From: Clostridia bacterium
GTDB taxonomy: Bacteria > Bacillota > Clostridia > Christensenellales > Aristaeellaceae
Reading direction: 5' to 3'
DNA length: 32,645 nucleotides
Assembly (NCBI GenBank): GCA_017434775.1
Contig: JAFSGG010000011.1
Coordinates: 1-32,645 of the forward strand
The position numbers were made by a program, and so were the translations under genes. Below are positions 16,733 to 22,822 of this stretch, in pieces; the stretch's first letter is position 1, and each line of letters opens with the position of its first letter. The notes under the pieces were generated by a model. That model ran no database searches. It was not told the origin of the DNA and was given only the letters and a program-made list of their open reading frames with translations.

Positions 16733-16781
16733 CGCTTTTGCTCCTTACTTTTTCATGATGATGTAAGCAGCACAAAGCCTG

Positions 16782-16851
16782 CCGGACGGTATTCCCTTTC
16801 AGGGGGCACCGCTCCGCACACACACCGTCCGGTTCAAGCCCTGTGCGGAGC
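16782..16851 (-). promoter_or_regulatory. Alternative hairpins of a ribosome-dependent attenuator
   Basis: On the minus strand, GCTCCGCAC inside the leader ORF (16843-16851) can pair with GTGCGGAGC (16811-16819). CCGGACGGT (16824-16832), which lies in the loop of that hairpin, can instead pair with ACCGTCCGG (16782-16790). The two 9-bp helices interleave, so they exclude each other unless a pseudoknot forms. A ribosome paused near the end of the leader would block the first and allow the second. Neither is followed by a clear T run, so control may act on translation or on later folding. Confidence 0.65.
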
Positions 16852-16896
16852 AAAGCCTTGGGCAGCGCGAGCCCTGTTAAAAGCACCTAAACACAT
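16834..16896 (-). CDS. 20-residue leader peptide of the MFS gene
   Basis: ATG at 16896 opens a 20-codon frame, MCLGAFNRARAAQGFAPHRA, ending with TGA. GAGGTG lies 6 nt before the ATG. The -10 box at 16917-16922 places the transcription start about 15 nt upstream, so the SD of the leader is almost the first thing transcribed, as in erm- and mef-type leaders. Its last codons overlap one arm of the upstream hairpin. The peptide is Ala/Arg-rich and has no signal sequence; its role is most likely the act of being translated. The family was not recognised with certainty. It begins 164 nt upstream of the MFS start. Confidence 0.7.
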   Translation of the reverse strand: MCLGAFNRARAAQGFAPHRA

Positions 16897-16916
16897 GAAA
16901 TTCACCTCTTGTATCC

Positions 16917-16945
16917 ATTATAGCACAACGCTTCCCCGGCTGCAA
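16917..16945 (-). promoter_or_regulatory. Promoter of the leader-MFS transcript
   Basis: TTGCAG (16940-16945), 17 nt, TATAAT (16917-16922) on the minus strand, with TGC directly before the -10 (extended -10). Confidence 0.75.
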
Positions 16946-16993
16946 CGCCGGATAAATTCCATCCTGACGCTTCAGGCTGCCCTGCGCCAAAAG

Positions 16994-17783: not shown

Positions 17784-18452
17784 TTATTTCATCCGGGCAA
17801 AGATCTGTTCAACGCCACCCGCCTTAATCGTCAGACGATCCCCATCCAGCATATATTCCGCAGCCGTTCCGTCCACGATGATCGTATTGCCTTCCACCGT
17901 ATAGGTAGCGGTATGTGTATCATTATAGTCCATCACGGTTAAAGTATAGGTAAATGTGCCGTCTTCCGTCAATTCCAACACGCAGAACACATCGCCAAAG
18001 CCATAAAGTTCAGCCGCACATTCCGGGGTCATCTGCCAGCGGCCGATAATGGTAGCTTCCGTCACTTCTTCGCCGCCCATCAGATCCAACAGTTGCATAT
18101 CCAGAGTACCATCAACAAGCTTTAAGACAGGCTGTCCCGTTTGCGAATCCGTCTCGTATACATACATGGAAACGGTTGCATCTTCTCCGCCGGAGTGCTC
18201 GATCAAATCTTTGATTTCAGCAGGAACAACCACCGTTACTTCCACAGGCGCAGCGTCAGCGCCATCTGCAACCGGTTCATTCACATCCATCGGCTCATTC
18301 TGCACCGGGCTGGTTGCAACCGCCGTAGCCAGAGGAGCCGTATCTTCCTGAGGAGCTACCCAATCCGAAAAGAGGGCCACGCCGGCCACCACGGCAGCCA
18401 CGGCCAATACCATAATCAACACATGCAAAAGTTTTTGCTTCATATTCTGCAT
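17784..18452 (-). CDS. Membrane-anchored protein with one lipocalin-like domain (array member 1)
   Basis: This 222-residue protein begins MQNMKQKLLHVLIMVLAVAA; residues 8-30 form a signal anchor without a lipobox Cys. An acidic, Pro/Ala-rich linker follows (about 32-75). The C-terminal half has the repeat seen throughout the array: 'IIGRWQMT' then 'LELTEDGTFTYTL', 'YTVEGNTIIVDG' and 'YMLDGDRLTI', read as the strands of a small lipocalin-like barrel. AGGAGG lies 7 nt before the ATG at 18452. It has its own promoter (TGGACA-17-TATAAT) and terminator. It differs from its paralogues in being anchored by a helix and in having an extra region (about 76-130) before the domain. Function unknown; ligand binding at the outer face is only an inference from the fold. 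Confidence 0.8.
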   Translation of the reverse strand: MQNMKQKLLHVLIMVLAVAAVVAGVALFSDWVAPQEDTAPLATAVATSPVQNEPMDVNEPVADGADAAPVEVTVVVPAEIKDLIEHSGGEDATVSMYVYETDSQTGQPVLKLVDGTLDMQLLDLMGGEEVTEATIIGRWQMTPECAAELYGFGDVFCVLELTEDGTFTYTLTVMDYNDTHTATYTVEGNTIIVDGTAAEYMLDGDRLTIKAGGVEQIFARMK

Positions 18453-18481
18453 TCCCCTTCCTCCTATCGTTCGTTCCTTCT

Positions 18482-18510
18482 ATTATAGCGGCCCTGTACG
18501 CCTTTGTCCA
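18482..18510 (-). promoter_or_regulatory. Promoter of array member 1
   Basis: TGGACA (18505-18510), 17 nt, TATAAT (18482-18487) on the minus strand. Confidence 0.75.
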
Positions 18511-18523
18511 TCCCTTTTCATGC

Positions 18524-18553
18524 AAAAACCCTGCCTCTTTTGCAGAAGCAGGG
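18524..18553 (-). terminator. Terminator of array member 2
   Basis: On the minus strand CCCTGCTTCT, a short loop and AGAGGCAGGG (one G-U pair) followed by TTTTTG. Confidence 0.8.
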
Positions 18554-18572
18554 CATTTGAAAACAACGGAAA

Positions 18573-19661
18573 TTACTTGGTCAGGGTCAGGTCCATGCCG
18601 CCGGCGCCATTGATCTTCAGGGTGTTGCCTTCCAGCACAAACTGATTGGGGGAGCCGTTCATGTACAGGGTGTTGCCTTCAACGGAATAGCTCATTTCTT
18701 CCCGGTTGGTTTCTTCACCCAGGGCGCTCACCACCATGATGCAGCGGCCATCAGCGGTGAATTCCATGGTGGCGCTCATCAGGGCGATGAGGGGCTTCAC
18801 TTCTTCCAGTTCTTCAGCGGACATCTGGCCGCTCATTTCCAGCACAGACAGCACGTCCAGCTTCCACACGCCCACAACGCTGCCGGCAGAGGCAGCAGGA
18901 GCAACAGGCGTGACGGTGGGTTCGGCGGTGGTGTTCCGGGTCAGGGTCATGGTAATGTCACTTTCGGTGATGGTCAGGGTATTGCCTTCCAGAACATAGG
19001 TGGCAGGATCGCCTTCCAGTTCGATGGTATTGCCATACACCTTATAGGGAGCTTCCTGGCGGCTGACTTCCTGACCCATGGCAGTGGCCACCAGGATGCA
19101 GCGGCCATCGGCAGTGAATTCCATGGTGGCGCTCATCAGACCCATCAAAGGTTCCATTTCGGCAATTTCTTCATCGGAAGCGCCGCTCATCTTCATCACA
19201 GCCATGATATCAATATCCCACACGCCCACAATGCCGTTATCGGCAGCAGGAACAACGGGGGCAGCGCCGGCGCCATGCAGGGTCATCACGATGGTGGTAC
19301 CGTCGGGGTCCTTCATGGTCAGTTCGTTGCCGGTGCGCTTGAGGGTGGAGCGCATGTTGCCGTCCGCCACAATGTAATCACCGGTGAGGGTGTAAGCATA
19401 TTCTTCCGTGCTCACTTCGCCGGCAGCATCCGTCTTCATGATCATTTTCTGATCCGCGGTGAATTCGATGGTCATGCTCATATCAACAATCGCCAGAAGA
19501 GCTTCCACGTCAGCAGCCTCAAGGCCCTGAGAAATAAGCAGTTCCTTCACGTCCACATCCCACACACCCTGGATTTCGCTCTGGGTGATCGCCTGGGCGG
19601 AGCAGCACAGAGCCAGCATCAGGGCCACTGCAAGCACAAAAATACGCATGGTCTTTTTCAT
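18573..19661 (-). CDS. Secreted protein with three tandem lipocalin-like domains (array member 2)
   Basis: This 362-residue protein begins MKKTMRIFVLAVALMLALCC and has a signal peptide probably cut after AQA (near residue 24). No proper lipobox is present, so it is likely secreted or wall-associated. Three repeats of about 110 residues follow. They start at 'IQGVWDVDVKELL', 'IVGVWDIDIMAVM' and 'VVGVWKLDVLSVL', and each has a 'MEFTADGRC'-type strand and a 'YVLEGNTLTI'-type strand near its end. Repeats 2 and 3 are closest to each other, and to the 128-residue lipoprotein at 20516; repeat 1 has diverged. Pro/Ala/Thr linkers separate them. A TTG at 19676 is in frame but sits in the SD; GGAGG is 8 nt before ATG 19661. 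It has a fully consensus promoter. Confidence 0.82.
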   Translation of the reverse strand: MKKTMRIFVLAVALMLALCCSAQAITQSEIQGVWDVDVKELLISQGLEAADVEALLAIVDMSMTIEFTADQKMIMKTDAAGEVSTEEYAYTLTGDYIVADGNMRSTLKRTGNELTMKDPDGTTIVMTLHGAGAAPVVPAADNGIVGVWDIDIMAVMKMSGASDEEIAEMEPLMGLMSATMEFTADGRCILVATAMGQEVSRQEAPYKVYGNTIELEGDPATYVLEGNTLTITESDITMTLTRNTTAEPTVTPVAPAASAGSVVGVWKLDVLSVLEMSGQMSAEELEEVKPLIALMSATMEFTADGRCIMVVSALGEETNREEMSYSVEGNTLYMNGSPNQFVLEGNTLKINGAGGMDLTLTK

Positions 19662-19719
19662 TTTTCTTTCCTCCAAATCTTTCCATCACCGCCTTTACAG
19701 GCAGCATTTCGCTGTGTTT

Positions 19720-19748
19720 ATTATACGATTGTTTATTTTCCGTGTCAA
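19720..19748 (-). promoter_or_regulatory. Consensus promoter of array member 2
   Basis: TTGACA (19743-19748), 17 nt, TATAAT (19720-19725) on the minus strand; all twelve bases match the sigma-A consensus. Confidence 0.88.
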
Positions 19749-19762
19749 TGGCTTCCACATAG

Positions 19763-19788
19763 AAAAAGAAGGCTTACGCCCTCTTTTT
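19763..19788 (-). terminator. Terminator of array member 3
   Basis: On the minus strand AAAAAGAGGGC-gtaa-GCCTTCTTTTT, an 11-bp stem with one G-U pair and a terminal T tract. Confidence 0.85.
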
Positions 19789-19806
19789 ACAATTTGAAAA
19801 AAGGAT

Positions 19807-20400
19807 TTATTCGTGGGTAACAATGGTCAGTTTGCCGTCTTCAATACGGAAGAAGTTGGGCTCGGCGCCGCCGATGCTCACGCGGTAATTACCATCTTCA
19901 TAAGTAGCGGTGTAGGCTTCTTCGGAAACCACGGTTTCGCCGTTGGCGGTCACCTTGATGAGCATCTTGCCGGTCTGGGTAAAATCAGCACCGGGGGCCT
20001 TGGCAGCCTCCTGCTGGGCAGCAGCGGCAGCGGCGGCTTCATCAGCAGCAGCCCGGGCCTGAAGGGCAGCTTCCTGGGCGGCGGCAGCTTCTTCTTCCGT
20101 TGCCTGGGCAGCAACAGCTTCTGCTTCCTGGGCAGCGGCTTCGGCATCCTGGGCAGCGGTCACAATATCATCGGTGAATTCGATGACAACAGACAGATCT
20201 TCCACCAGATACAGGATATCGCCAAAGTTATCCGTATTCACACCGGCAAATGCATTCAGGACATCCAGATCCATCTTCCATTCGCCCACGATGGACGTAT
20301 TTTTTTCAACAGGAGCAGCTTCCTTGGTGTCGCAAGCAGTCAGGGAAAATGCCAAAACAACCAATACCAAAATAACAGCCAGTTTCTTGCTCAGTTTCAT
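19807..20400 (-). CDS. Lipoprotein, lipocalin-like domain split by an Ala-rich coiled-coil insert (array member 3)
   Basis: This 197-residue lipoprotein begins MKLSKKLAVILVLVVLAFSL and has the lipobox LTAC, so it should be anchored to the outer face of the membrane through Cys23. The domain opens normally with 'IVGEWKMDLDVLNAFAG' and 'VVIEFTDD'. Then about 60 residues of Ala/Glu/Gln follow, with heptad-like spacing (for example AAQDAEAAAQEAEAVAAQAT), before the domain resumes at 'TGKMLIKVTANGETVV'. In the paralogues the two halves are adjacent (EFTADGKM), so the helix is inserted in the turn between two strands. The end 'FFRIEDGKLTIV' closes the domain. GGGAGG lies 9 nt before the ATG. It has its own consensus promoter and terminator. 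Function unknown. Confidence 0.82.
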   Translation of the reverse strand: MKLSKKLAVILVLVVLAFSLTACDTKEAAPVEKNTSIVGEWKMDLDVLNAFAGVNTDNFGDILYLVEDLSVVIEFTDDIVTAAQDAEAAAQEAEAVAAQATEEEAAAAQEAALQARAAADEAAAAAAAQQEAAKAPGADFTQTGKMLIKVTANGETVVSEEAYTATYEDGNYRVSIGGAEPNFFRIEDGKLTIVTHE

Positions 20401-20435
20401 GCTTATGTTCCTCCCGTATGTATCAATCCTTGTCT

Positions 20436-20464
20436 ATTATACGATGATTTTTGTCCGCTGTCAA
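20436..20464 (-). promoter_or_regulatory. Consensus promoter of array member 3
   Basis: TTGACA (20459-20464), 17 nt, TATAAT (20436-20441) on the minus strand. Confidence 0.88.
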
Positions 20465-20480
20465 CTTGTTTTCCGGCACA

Positions 20481-20508
20481 AAAAAAGAAGGCGTTGCCGC
20501 CTTCTTTT
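20481..20508 (-). terminator. Terminator of array member 4 (shared hairpin type)
   Basis: AAAAGAAGGCG (20483-20493), TTGC, CGCCTTCTTTT (20498-20508). On the minus strand a run of T follows. Nearly the same hairpin occurs at 21481 and 22341. Confidence 0.88.
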
Positions 20509-20515
20509 AAATTCT

Positions 20516-20902
20516 TTACTTGCGGGTGAGCGTCAGGCTCATGCCGTTTTCGGTGATGGTCAGCTTGTTGCCGTCGATCTTGAAGGTGGCAGGAGAGCCG
20601 CCGTCCAGGGTGATCTTATCGCCTTCCACTTTGTAGGTGCCTTCCTGCGTTTCGCTCTGGCCCATCATGGTCATGGTCATCACCATCTTGCCGTCAGCCT
20701 TGAATTCCATGGTGCCTTCCATGGCGCCAACCAGGGCTTTCACCTGTTCGTATTCTTCTGCGCTCATGCCGGCCATCTGCAGGATAGCGTCAATATCCAT
20801 CTTCCATACGCCAACGATGCTGTTGTTGCTGCCGCAGGCTGCCAGGGAGAACACCATAACCACCAGAAGAAGAAGGGCTACCAGTTTTTTGTTCAGTTTC
20901 AT
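20516..20902 (-). CDS. Single-domain lipocalin-like lipoprotein (array member 4)
   Basis: This 128-residue lipoprotein begins MKLNKKLVALLLLVVMVFSL and has lipobox LAAC. After a short SNN linker the whole mature protein is one domain: 'IVGVWKMDIDAILQMAGMSA', 'TMEFKADGKMVMTMTM', 'YKVEGDKITLDGG', 'FKIDGNKLTITENGMSLTLT'. It is the most compact member and shows the repeat unit clearly. It is close to repeats 2 and 3 of the 362-residue protein, with the same helix 'MSAEE' and the 'GAMEGTMEF' strand. A TTG at 20917 is in frame but lies in the SD; GGAGG is 7 nt from ATG 20902. It has a consensus promoter. Function unknown. Confidence 0.85.
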   Translation of the reverse strand: MKLNKKLVALLLLVVMVFSLAACGSNNSIVGVWKMDIDAILQMAGMSAEEYEQVKALVGAMEGTMEFKADGKMVMTMTMMGQSETQEGTYKVEGDKITLDGGSPATFKIDGNKLTITENGMSLTLTRK

Positions 20903-20935
20903 TTGTTTTTCCTCCAATTATAATTTGGTACAATC

Positions 20936-20964
20936 ATTATACCCCAATACAGCTGTTTTGTCAA
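20936..20964 (-). promoter_or_regulatory. Consensus promoter of array member 4
   Basis: TTGACA (20959-20964), 17 nt, TATAAT (20936-20941) on the minus strand. No clear terminator separates it from the upstream gene at 20998, so some read-through is possible. Confidence 0.88.
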
Positions 20965-20997
20965 TTGATAAGAAAGTACTATCCCTTTCCGGATGCA

Positions 20998-21408
20998 TCA
21001 TTGACGGATAAGATGCAAGGGGGTACCGCCCTCAATCGTCAGCTTATTGCCGTCCAGTTTATAGGCCACCGCTTCATTGTCCACGATAATCTGATTGCCG
21101 TCCACGGTATAAACACCTTCCAAAAAAAGCTGCTTATCACTGCCGGTAATTTTATATAAATACAGCTTCCCGTCCGCAGTAAACTCATAACTCATTCCAA
21201 TGTTTCCATGCTGTTCCATTGCCTGTTCATAGCTTTCTTCTGTCAAGCCCACAAAATCCATCAGCGTTTCTTTTTCCATTGCCCACACGCCCACCAGCGC
21301 CGTATCGGAACCGCCGGGGGTTGCTTCCTCCTGTTCGCCGCAGGCCGTCAGGGCAAAGGCCGCCACAATCAACAGGATAATTGCAACCCATTTTTTGTTC
21401 TGTTTCAT
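20998..21408 (-). CDS. Single-domain lipocalin-like lipoprotein (array member 5)
   Basis: This 136-residue lipoprotein begins MKQNKKWVAIILLIVAAFAL and has lipobox LTAC. The domain runs 'LVGVWAMEKETLMDFVGLTE', 'MSYEFTADGKLYLYKITG', 'YTVDGNQIIVDN', 'YKLDGNKLTIEGG'. It resembles the 140-residue member at 22367 in the stretch 'EFTADGKLYLYK' versus 'EFTADGTLYMYIK', so these two may be a separate sub-group. GGGAGG lies 9 nt before the ATG. It has its own promoter (TTGACA-17-TATACT). No convincing terminator follows it: only a weak GAAAG/CTTTC pair lies before the next gene. Function unknown. Confidence 0.84.
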   Translation of the reverse strand: MKQNKKWVAIILLIVAAFALTACGEQEEATPGGSDTALVGVWAMEKETLMDFVGLTEESYEQAMEQHGNIGMSYEFTADGKLYLYKITGSDKQLFLEGVYTVDGNQIIVDNEAVAYKLDGNKLTIEGGTPLHLIRQ

Positions 21409-21443
21409 AGTCTGTTGCCTCCCATGTTCTTTTGTTACGCTTC

Positions 21444-21472
21444 AGTATACGCATCCTTCTACCCTTTGTCAA
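21444..21472 (-). promoter_or_regulatory. Promoter of array member 5
   Basis: TTGACA (21467-21472), 17 nt, TATACT (21444-21449) on the minus strand. Confidence 0.82.
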
Positions 21473-21473
21473 A

Positions 21474-21500
21474 CAAAAAAAGAAGGCGTTGCCGCCTTCT
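21474..21500 (-). terminator. Terminator of array member 6 (shared hairpin type)
   Basis: AGAAGGCG (21481-21488), TTGC, CGCCTTCT (21493-21500), with a T tract on the minus strand. It overlaps the -35 side of the promoter for member 5 by only a few bases of spacing. Confidence 0.85.
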
Positions 21501-21510
21501 TCTGTCATTC

Positions 21511-22269
21511 TTACTTAATCCGGTTGAAGATAAGCAAATTTGAATCATCTTTCAGAATTAATCTGTCATTTCCTTCCAGGACATATTCAACTGTAGCAAC
21601 ATTATCTATTGTACATTGGTTTCCGTCCAAGGAATAAGTTGATTCTGAAATTTGATATACGCCAAAAATCGTTTCCTCGCAGATAACCCTTCCATCTGCC
21701 ATAAACTCAAAGCGCCCGCTCATATTACCGCTATTTACCTTTTCTTCTTCCAGATCTTCAGGCAATACACCGCTGGCCAGCAAAACTTCATCCATGTCAA
21801 GTTCCCACAAGCCAACAATAGTAGACTGCTGCGCTTCAGTAGCTGTGGCTTCTTCCTTTGTTAGAATCATGAACGATGTTCCTTTACTTTCCACATCAAT
21901 TGTCATGACATTTCCTTCAATGCTAAATAAATGAGCGTTATTTTCCATTTCAAACTGAAGTTTATTTCCTTCAATAGTATATTTTGAAGCATTTTCTCTA
22001 ATGATAATTCCATTCAGCACTACTTTTGTCTTTGCCACATAATCTGCTCCGAATTCATAGTAGCATTCAGTTCCTTCTTCAGCACCATAAGGAACACCAT
22101 TCAATTTCCACAAACCAAACAGAGGATTTTGTTCCGTTTTTGTATCTAAGAGCAATTCCTTATTTTCCGTGGTTTGAGAAGCTTCCACATTCGTTTCGCT
22201 GCAGGCCGTCTGACAAAGCGCCACTATAACCAGCAGCAAAACAGCCATCCATTTTTTATTCGGTTTCAT
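21511..22269 (-). CDS. Two-domain lipocalin-like lipoprotein (array member 6)
   Basis: This 252-residue lipoprotein begins MKPNKKWMAVLLLVIVALCQ and has lipobox QTAC. Two divergent copies of the array domain follow. The first starts 'LFGLWKLNGVPYGAEEG' and holds 'YTIEGNKLQF' and 'FSIEGNVMTIDV'. The second starts 'IVGLWELDMDEVLLASGVLP' and holds 'FEFMADGRVIC', 'YSLDGNQCTIDN' and 'YVLEGNDRLILKD'. The coding sequence is clearly more AT-rich than its neighbours, which suggests either an older divergent copy or later arrival. ATG 22275 is only 2 nt from AGGAGG, so ATG 22269 (8 nt) is preferred. It has a promoter TTGACA-17-TATACT and a terminator. Function unknown. Confidence 0.82.
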   Translation of the reverse strand: MKPNKKWMAVLLLVIVALCQTACSETNVEASQTTENKELLLDTKTEQNPLFGLWKLNGVPYGAEEGTECYYEFGADYVAKTKVVLNGIIIRENASKYTIEGNKLQFEMENNAHLFSIEGNVMTIDVESKGTSFMILTKEEATATEAQQSTIVGLWELDMDEVLLASGVLPEDLEEEKVNSGNMSGRFEFMADGRVICEETIFGVYQISESTYSLDGNQCTIDNVATVEYVLEGNDRLILKDDSNLLIFNRIK

Positions 22270-22298
22270 TTGCATTTCCTCCTATGTTGTTTTTTTTC

Positions 22299-22327
22299 AG
22301 TATATGCCTGCGGCTTTCATTTGTCAA
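22299..22327 (-). promoter_or_regulatory. Promoter of array member 6
   Basis: TTGACA (22322-22327), 17 nt, TATACT (22299-22304) on the minus strand. Confidence 0.82.
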
Positions 22328-22333
22328 TGCAAA

Positions 22334-22358
22334 GAGAAAAGAAGGCGTTGCCGCCTTC
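22334..22358 (-). terminator. Terminator of array member 7 (shared hairpin type)
   Basis: GAAGGCG (22341-22347), TTGC, CGCCTTC (22352-22358); on the minus strand CTTTTCTCTTT follows. Confidence 0.78.
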
Positions 22359-22366
22359 CTGATTTT

Positions 22367-22789
22367 TTACTTTCTCCGGGTATAGGTAATGCTGATGCCG
22401 CCCTGCACCAACGTCAGCTTATCCCCCTCGATGGTATATGTGCCGGAGGTGCCCACGAAAGCCAGCTGATTGCCGCTGACGGTATAGGTAGTTTCTCGGG
22501 TATCGGACATATCACCGGCCTTGATGTACATATACAATGTACCGTCGGCAGTGAATTCCATCGCCACTTCGGAAGAATCATACAATTCTTTATTGGCTTC
22601 GTATTCTTCCTGAGAAACGCTCTGCATCATCTGTTCCCTGTCCTGCACCCACACACCCACAATGGGATGCACGGCAAGCTTGGGGGCTTCAGTGGGTTTT
22701 GCTTCTGCTTTCTGATCGCCGCAGGCGGTCAGAGAAATCATCACTGCAACCAGCAGCAGGGCTGCCATCCACTTTTTATACTGTTTCAT
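22367..22789 (-). CDS. Single-domain lipocalin-like lipoprotein (array member 7)
   Basis: This 140-residue lipoprotein begins MKQYKKWMAALLLVAVMISL and has lipobox LTAC. After a linker of Lys/Ala/Glu/Pro the domain reads 'IVGVWVQDREQMMQSVSQ', 'AMEFTADGTLYMYIKAG', 'YTVSGNQLAFVG', 'YTIEGDKLTLVQGGISITYT'. It is the first gene transcribed at the right end of the array and diverges from the ABC exporter gene. An ATG-like start at 22810 is in frame, but AAGGAGG sits 8 nt before ATG 22789. It has a fully consensus promoter. Function unknown; the divergent exporter may be related in function or merely adjacent. Confidence 0.84.
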   Translation of the reverse strand: MKQYKKWMAALLLVAVMISLTACGDQKAEAKPTEAPKLAVHPIVGVWVQDREQMMQSVSQEEYEANKELYDSSEVAMEFTADGTLYMYIKAGDMSDTRETTYTVSGNQLAFVGTSGTYTIEGDKLTLVQGGISITYTRRK

Positions 22790-22822
22790 ATCGTTATCCT
22801 CCTTGTACACTGAACAGAAAAA

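Follow-up and report, generated by a model that had tools for sequence, protein, structure and literature searches.

The window analysed here, a 32,645-nt stretch of Clostridia bacterium DNA, carries on its minus strand a gene for a 431-aa MFS protein that is preceded by a promoter, a short leader ORF and a series of complementary RNA segments. The protein matched TIGR00900 (E 2.9e-56; 191 bits, cut-off 319.6), the NCBIfam Mef(A) model (E 1.7e-34; 119.6 bits, cut-off 675) as well as Pfam MFS_1 and MFS_3. All of the matches to TIGR00900 and the Mef models fall under the curated cut-offs, and the protein is, judged from its sequence, Mef-like. A hairpin resembling an intrinsic terminator lies directly 3´ of the gene, so the transcription unit is probably single-gene. 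We also noted, at 17784-22810 on the minus strand, several small lipoprotein-like ORFs in a row, their ends being similar, one of which gave a weak DUF5640 match under the cut-off. The features of the MFS locus are as follows.

16917..16945, minus strand: whole putative promoter, from -35 to extended -10; transcript start expected at ~16910
16945-16940, minus strand: TTGCAG, read from the sequence as the -35, with a 17-nt spacer to the extended -10
16925-16917, minus strand: extended -10, TGCTATAAT, read from the sequence
16908-16902, minus strand: leader Shine-Dalgarno GAGGTGA, read from the sequence, close to the expected transcript start
16896-16834, minus strand: leader ORF MCLGAFNRARAAQGFAPHRA, 20 codons plus TGA (ATG at 16896, TGA at 16836-16834)
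16855-16847, minus strand: CTTTGCTCC, overlapping segment 1a and complementary to the MFS Shine-Dalgarno (GGAGCAAAG) in the window MFE fold
16851-16843, minus strand: segment 1a, GCTCCGCAC, within the final codons of the leader; 5´ arm of P1, opposite segment 2 (by covariation)
16824..16846, minus strand: segment 1b, the predicted anti-sequestor, made of GCACAGGGCTTG (16846-16835, the leader end) and CCGGACGGT (16832-16824)
16819-16811, minus strand: segment 2, GTGCGGAGC, 3´ arm of P1 (by covariation)
16790-16782, minus strand: ACCGTCCGG, 3´ arm of the second 9-bp helix, corresponding to upper P3 (sequence reading and MFE)
16781-16763, minus strand: segment 3, CAGGCTTTGTGCTGCTTAC, with segment 1b (P3, Shine-Dalgarno free) or segment 4 (P2, Shine-Dalgarno closed) as partner
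16748-16734, minus strand: segment 4, GTAAGGAGCAAAAGC, including the MFS Shine-Dalgarno AAGGAGC (P2, by covariation)
16732-15437, minus strand: MFS protein gene, the putative controlled gene (TIGR00900, Mef(A) model, Pfam)
15429-15388, minus strand: intrinsic-terminator-like hairpin (terminator scan)

Reading of the coordinates on the minus strand bore out the layout given in the preliminary description, namely an extended -10 followed nearly at once by a Shine-Dalgarno and a 20-codon ORF, and two interleaved 9-bp helices, one of which has an arm in the last leader codons. The promoter, whose -35 is weak, was assigned from the sequence and is not among the calls of a consensus promoter scan of the window. 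A 21-base exact match to the promoter region at G000:C21 by eye lacked a following -10 and was set aside. The two helices pair GCTCCGCAC with GTGCGGAGC and CCGGACGGT with ACCGTCCGG, and their arms follow one another on the minus strand in the order A-B-A'-B', so that they are mutually exclusive except as a pseudoknot. The minus-strand fold of 16733-16925 reached -75.4 kcal/mol versus -60.7 kcal/mol (sd 4.6) for shuffled sequences (z -3.2; equalled by one of 200 shuffles), and a plus-strand fold of 16760-16960 was ordinary (z -0.67).

Two elements had been overlooked in the preliminary description. One is segment 3, which can pair with either the leader end (P3) or the MFS Shine-Dalgarno (P2); the other is the region of the 5´ arm of the first helix, CTTTGCTCC, which is complementary to the Shine-Dalgarno. 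Both are engaged in the window MFE, where segment 3 pairs with the leader end and CTTTGCTCC with the MFS Shine-Dalgarno. In P3, segment 1b pairs with 16790-16770, as seen by covariation over the leader-end part and by MFE. For the CTTTGCTCC pairing found in the MFE, covariation is uninformative because the Shine-Dalgarno hardly varies. A mini-ORF, ATG AAA AAG TAA (16756-16745, minus strand), lies in the P2 loop and overlaps the start of the MFS Shine-Dalgarno. The MFS protein also begins with MKK, and the mini-ORF as such was not seen in L003, a close relative that is a goat-rectum Clostridia MAG.

The MFS protein search matched 33 of 60 near relatives, with the own genome counted, and 29 of 395 genomes of the order at E 1e-45. 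The own genome holds a second leader copy, MFLAIALAPCKG, before an MFS paralogue (39% identical) on contig 104. Upstream DNA was examined at 56 MFS loci including the window, and an alignable leader was found in 44. The 44-row alignment omits L007 and L010 (leader start unclear), L015 (two serial matches in R1, which together with R2 denotes our leader searches), L052, L068, L069, L021, L053 and L055 (hairpins or leaders of unlike sequence), and L049, L054 and L056, where the leader was not seen upstream. By eye, no leader was seen at L022-L026 (26-30% identical); L027 and L029-L033 fell outside the inspection. A further alignment, A3, corresponds to A2 minus four weak or antisense matches. 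At L015 (G029:C32:43330-43449 and 43469-43586) and L204 (G553:C42:41320-41441 and 41510-41645), two R1 matches in series precede one MFS gene, possibly as tandem leaders. The DNA upstream of the leader at L012 resembles the 3´ end of a group II intron, and this gene may adjoin a mobile element.

Given the 44 leaders, RNAalifold, unaided, predicted P1, between the leader end and segment 2, as well as P2, between segment 3 and the Shine-Dalgarno, and 5 of the 15 pairs in its structure change on both sides. For P1 and P2 together, 91.3% of cells are paired compared to 86.4% in shuffles (reached by 0 of 500) and a maximum of 47.4% for slid versions, and 58 cells show both-side change versus 21.4 in shuffles. 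P3, which joins the leader end to segment 3 and shares columns with both P1 and P2, behaves likewise, with 94.0% of cells paired (88.7% shuffled, reached by 0 of 500; slid maximum 48.6%) and both-side change in 18 cells versus 3.2. Counted as pairs, both-side change did not go beyond the shuffles, either for P1 and P2 (8 versus 5.9; 27 of 500) or for P3 (4 versus 2.4; 60 of 500, with one slid version giving 5). A wider alignment of 57 leaders, which was fitted to the model and hence is biased towards it, has both-side changes in 17 of 19 P1/P2 pairs and in 88 cells versus 24.6. Column 34 is A in 8 of the 44 leaders: column 61 is U in 7 of these 8 (P1 kept), and column 115 is U in 6 including the window (P3 kept), the exceptions being L047 and L057. 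The covariation that the preliminary description had hoped to find in relatives is thus present in its first helix (P1) and in two further helices, P2 and P3. These patterns indicate, at the level of aligned sequences, that the Shine-Dalgarno would be closed in one of two exclusive structures, with P2 and P3 covarying and sharing segment 3.

For analysis of the leader peptide, we parsed 135 distinct loci with a P1-like arm pair. In 119 of the 135, an ORF ends five codons past the Ala codon (113 TGA and 6 TAA); in 12 it ends at another position, and 4 loci lack an ORF in the usual frame. At L063, outside the parsed set, the usual stop is lost. Of the 119 ORFs, 58 were parsed as 12 codons, such as MLLAIAFAPCKA and MKLCIAFAPRRV, and 48 as 15-22 codons, with 35 of these being 20 codons long like the leader in the window (for example those of L003, L034, L035 and L036); these counts lean to 12 because the parser favoured starts near 12 codons. 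When the start was chosen by Shine-Dalgarno alone, 12 codons were obtained in 23 of 38 MFS/CatA leaders. In the unpaired upstream codons, one-base differences are synonymous in 51% of cases for the 12-codon leaders and 55% for those of 15-22 codons (expected 30% and 29%), compared to 9-22% in the other frames. The shares are 53% and 48%, respectively, without codon -4, which lies four codons upstream of the Ala in the Ala-Pro pair. This excess is a contrast and not a p-value, as sequence pairs are non-independent. At codon -4, the 48 leaders of 15-22 codons have Ala (47) or Thr (1), and the 58 of 12 codons have Cys (23), Ala (20), Ile (7), Thr (5), Met (2) or Ser (1). We know of no erm or mef leader peptide that the parsed peptides resemble. 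These features point to a short upstream leader ORF that appears to be under selection as a peptide. The preliminary description had also asked for a leader ORF kept beside MFS or other resistance genes, as is found here with the common stop and lengths of mostly 12 or ~20 codons, and had named a lack of conservation of ORF or helices in relatives as grounds for abandoning its reading; upon examination, both proved to be conserved.

With the own genome included in each count, R1 gave matches in 109 of 300 family genomes, 26 of 245 class genomes and 13 of 398 phylum genomes, and R2 in 10 of 235 phylum genomes. Among 111 loci examined from the R1 family and phylum matches (L071-L103 and L132-L209), an MFS gene could be recognised downstream of the leader in 101 (95 through an ORF and 6 through translated search). 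The other 10 comprise four CD3324 genes as well as L103, L097, L201, L202, L208 and L209, of which L201 and L202 have P1 alone. We observed that the leader is kept before an MFS remnant at L103/L270 (G879:C12) and before an interrupted MFS start at L097 (G660:C3). The R1 matches L109, L110, L112, L208, L209, L231 and L232 and the R2 matches L109 and L273 were judged to be chance; the R2 match L274 has a CD3324-like start, but the reading frame breaks off as found, and it was not counted. Named carriers include Subdoligranulum variabile OY725846.1 (leader MKLCIASAPCKV, GTG start) and Monoglobus pectinilyticus NZ_OY725739.1 (leader MKLCIAEALCKV).

The 26 class loci divide into 15 MFS, 6 CD3324, 2 CatA-type, 1 Lsa ABC-F and 2 chance matches. 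The CatA-type genes after L224 and L225 score 210 and 212 of 270 bits, under the cut-off, and the ABC-F at L235 matches Lsa at 763 bits, above the cut-off of 750. In the phylum, CD3324 follows the leader at L104-L108 (NCBIfam) and, by likeness alone, at L111, where the frame runs for 36 residues before it breaks off. The leaders at L114, L272 and L275, all in genomes of one family (f66), precede genes for FusB-type proteins that have EF-G-binding and zinc-finger domains; the NCBIfam fusB/C/D/F models match L114 far under their cut-offs. A CatA family search gave 31 places in 28 of 216 genomes, two alone of which score above the family cut-off, and an R1 scan of 30 CatA loci gave one full match, L266 (the place of L225), so the family is mostly without the leader. 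A 15.9-bit match at L248 consists of a P2-like hairpin alone directly before the CatA start and was not counted. The CD3324 family search gave 17 places in 15 of 149 genomes. Among the 16 viewed, which include L120, near a contig end and off the gene, L118, L125 and L131 bear the element by eye; L118 and L131 coincide with L107 and L108. By eye, CD3324 genes of other families (L115-L117, L119, L121-L124 and L128) have other inverted-repeat leaders of unlike sequence, some of which reuse the start region of the gene itself (for example CGTTGGC...GCCAACG...CGTTGGC), and these are possibly analogous attenuators.

Across these genes, the same RNA is apparently read in different frames. Most MFS leaders and both CatA leaders read the stretch CTCCATGCAARGCC as P-C-K-A-stop. 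About half of 17 CD3324 leaders have H-A-K-P or similar there, as do L235 (Lsa), L275 and the MFS leaders L223 and L234, and other CD3324 leaders use the third frame. Starts in this survey were picked mechanically and some are uncertain: L012, L020 and L045, which have 12-codon ORFs, were mis-picked, and for L106 and L207 one of two candidate ORFs was taken. The use of several frames suggests that the stretch is kept as RNA and that the part of the peptide involved in sensing is to be expected upstream; a C-terminal A-P-C-K-A as stall motif was rejected because other leaders read this RNA in a different frame. The four CD3324 leaders from the family of the window (L203 and L205-L207) have an upstream N-E/Q-A/V in common.

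We then computed, for 112 leaders, the energy required to open five Shine-Dalgarno bases in the RNA downstream of a ribosome leading edge moved base by base, with positions given relative to m, the first C of CTCC. The median was 5.8 kcal/mol without a ribosome, 6.4-7.9 kcal/mol at edges m-14..m-2 and m+7..m+21, 4.0-5.1 kcal/mol at m-1, m+0 and m+6, and 2.1-3.2 kcal/mol at m+1..m+5, a span of 5 nt. An edge 16 nt past the first base of the P-site codon corresponds to codon -4 in the P site, and an edge 14 nt past it to codon -3 in the P site with codon -4 penultimate. In 12 CD3324/FusB-type leaders, the drop at m+1..m+5 exceeded 1.5 kcal/mol in five (L105, L108, L125, L205 and L207), was 1.2 in L203, and was below 1 or absent in L104, L106, L107, L111, L114 and L206. 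For the window itself, the calculation gave an open Shine-Dalgarno with a probability of 0.033 at the best ribosome codon and of 0.0 when unoccupied, low because a small CTTAC-GTAAG helix persists; in these calculations, the model would be favoured in the window solely by the relative change in Shine-Dalgarno opening.

Collectively, the conservation, the three competing helices, the selection on the leader peptide and the narrow computed ribosome position that opens the site make it most likely that the element acts as a translational attenuator responsive to ribosome stalling, which would free the MFS Shine-Dalgarno. The resistance-like character of the genes downstream of the leader speaks for the same reading. 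Without a stall, P1 would tie the last leader codons to segment 2 and P2 would tie segment 3 to the Shine-Dalgarno, such that the site is closed; alternatively, following the window MFE, segment 3 would lie on the leader end and CTTTGCTCC would close the Shine-Dalgarno. A ribosome halted inside the leader would hide segment 1a and leave the leader end (1b) free to capture segment 3 (P3), whereupon little would remain to close the Shine-Dalgarno and the MFS protein would be made. The attenuator placed before the MFS gene by the preliminary description is therefore strengthened by the conservation, covariation, kept ORF and computed switching, but that description gave half of the mechanism, the arm that closes the Shine-Dalgarno having gone unseen. 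The stall would be caused by a ribosome-targeting drug, probably of the peptidyl-transferase-centre type, at the small residue of codon -4, and the MFS protein would export the stalling drug. Chloramphenicol and linezolid are reported to arrest best with a penultimate Ala and less with Ser or Thr (PMC8987054), and it is from this rule that we infer peptidyl-transferase binders as the inducer class. Cys, Ile and Met at codon -4 fall outside the published phenicol/linezolid rule (Cys in 23 and Ile/Met in 9 of the 58 12-codon leaders).

Other explanations account for parts of these data. The 12-codon leaders, of which 48 of 58 have Leu at -5 and 44 of 58 have Ile at -3, could belong to an amino-acid attenuator that senses a shortage (e.g. 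of Ile, Leu, Cys or Ala) and controls an MFS protein that moves a metabolite. However, the leader has no run of one codon type, the 48 leaders of 15-22 codons have Asp (33) or Gln (14) at -3 and not Ile, and the genes downstream encode CatA-type, Lsa ABC-F, FusB-type and Mef-like MFS proteins, with no biosynthesis gene in the examined loci; we regard an amino-acid attenuator as quite improbable. Slightly less probable again is a transcriptional attenuator, in which a competing hairpin would stop transcription short of the MFS gene. In the window, the leader hairpins are not followed by a U-run, the terminator scan made no call between the leader ORF and the MFS gene on the minus strand, and the Shine-Dalgarno is itself inside the covarying P2, all of which speak against this arrangement despite the kinship of the MFS protein with the Mef models and the attenuation of this kind reported for mef(E)/mel (PMC4335068).

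The varying frames raise the question of whether the leader ORF is incidental to a riboswitch or protein-binding element, since the RNA arms persist across gene groups that differ in the frame used there, and L007 and L202 have P1 but no ORF in the usual frame. The synonymous excess in unpaired leader codons, even without codon -4, and the common stop position argue otherwise, as do the lack of any Rfam match and the 18 invariant columns of alignment A1, 17 of which are in arms or the Shine-Dalgarno (the exception, by reading, is one leader G). We consider this explanation the least likely of those discussed.

For the translational attenuator, the findings on reading frames suggest an extension on which we are evenly divided: that one RNA switch is an interchangeable chassis placed before genes of five or more families (the MFS exporter, the CatA-type acetyltransferase, Lsa ABC-F, the FusB-type protein and the CD3324 Mor-like protein). 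The helices of this switch would be kept, and with its three leader frames and different upstream stall peptides it could read different drugs, with a small residue (Ala/Cys) as the sensor of peptidyl-transferase drugs in the exporter and most other MFS-frame leaders. Such RNA, kept while read in three frames, would be a clean test bed for RNA versus peptide constraints in attenuators. If the attenuator reading is true, these leaders form a family of stall-sensing RNA switches that is as yet unlisted and is widespread among gut Clostridia and other Bacillota, MFS genes in uncultured bacteria are marked as likely inducible resistance genes, and the uncharacterised Mor-like family CD3324 is tied to translation stress. 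It would also offer a candidate answer to the regulation of some FusB homologues, stated as unknown in PMC12493156. For the leader described here, Rfam 15 gave no coverage, with tmRNA as the sole match over the window and no family reaching its gathering score over 11 leader loci, and searches of the open-access literature listed no description of the leader or of CD3324.

The element can be compared with several known systems. In ermC, a short leader ORF is followed by competing hairpins and a ribosome stalled on the leader frees the Shine-Dalgarno, with segment 2 of four freeing the site by taking segment 3. The leader here shares the short ORF, the competing hairpins and, as predicted, the opening of the Shine-Dalgarno by a leader stall, but its anti-sequestor would be the end of the leader itself, and the peptide and target gene also differ. 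The cat leaders, which are very short and encode a different peptide, have one sequestering hairpin; reportedly, cat translational attenuators are covered in a review by Lovett. The leaders described here are likewise very short and are borne by the CatA-type genes at L224 and L225, but differ in having three competing helices, common to other gene families. The fusB gene of pUB101 is reported to be controlled by translational attenuation and induced by fusidic acid (PMC12008383, PMC12493156), and the FusB-type genes at L114, L272 and L275 bear the leader, a likeness at the level of description. For mef(E)/mel (msr(D)), a leader region similarly governs a Mef-type MFS gene, but there it is reported to attenuate transcription (PMC4335068), whereas the controlled site here would be the Shine-Dalgarno. 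On our best reading, the way of working is that known from ermC, cat and fusB, and what is new is the use of the leader's own end as anti-sequestor in an element absent from Rfam 15.
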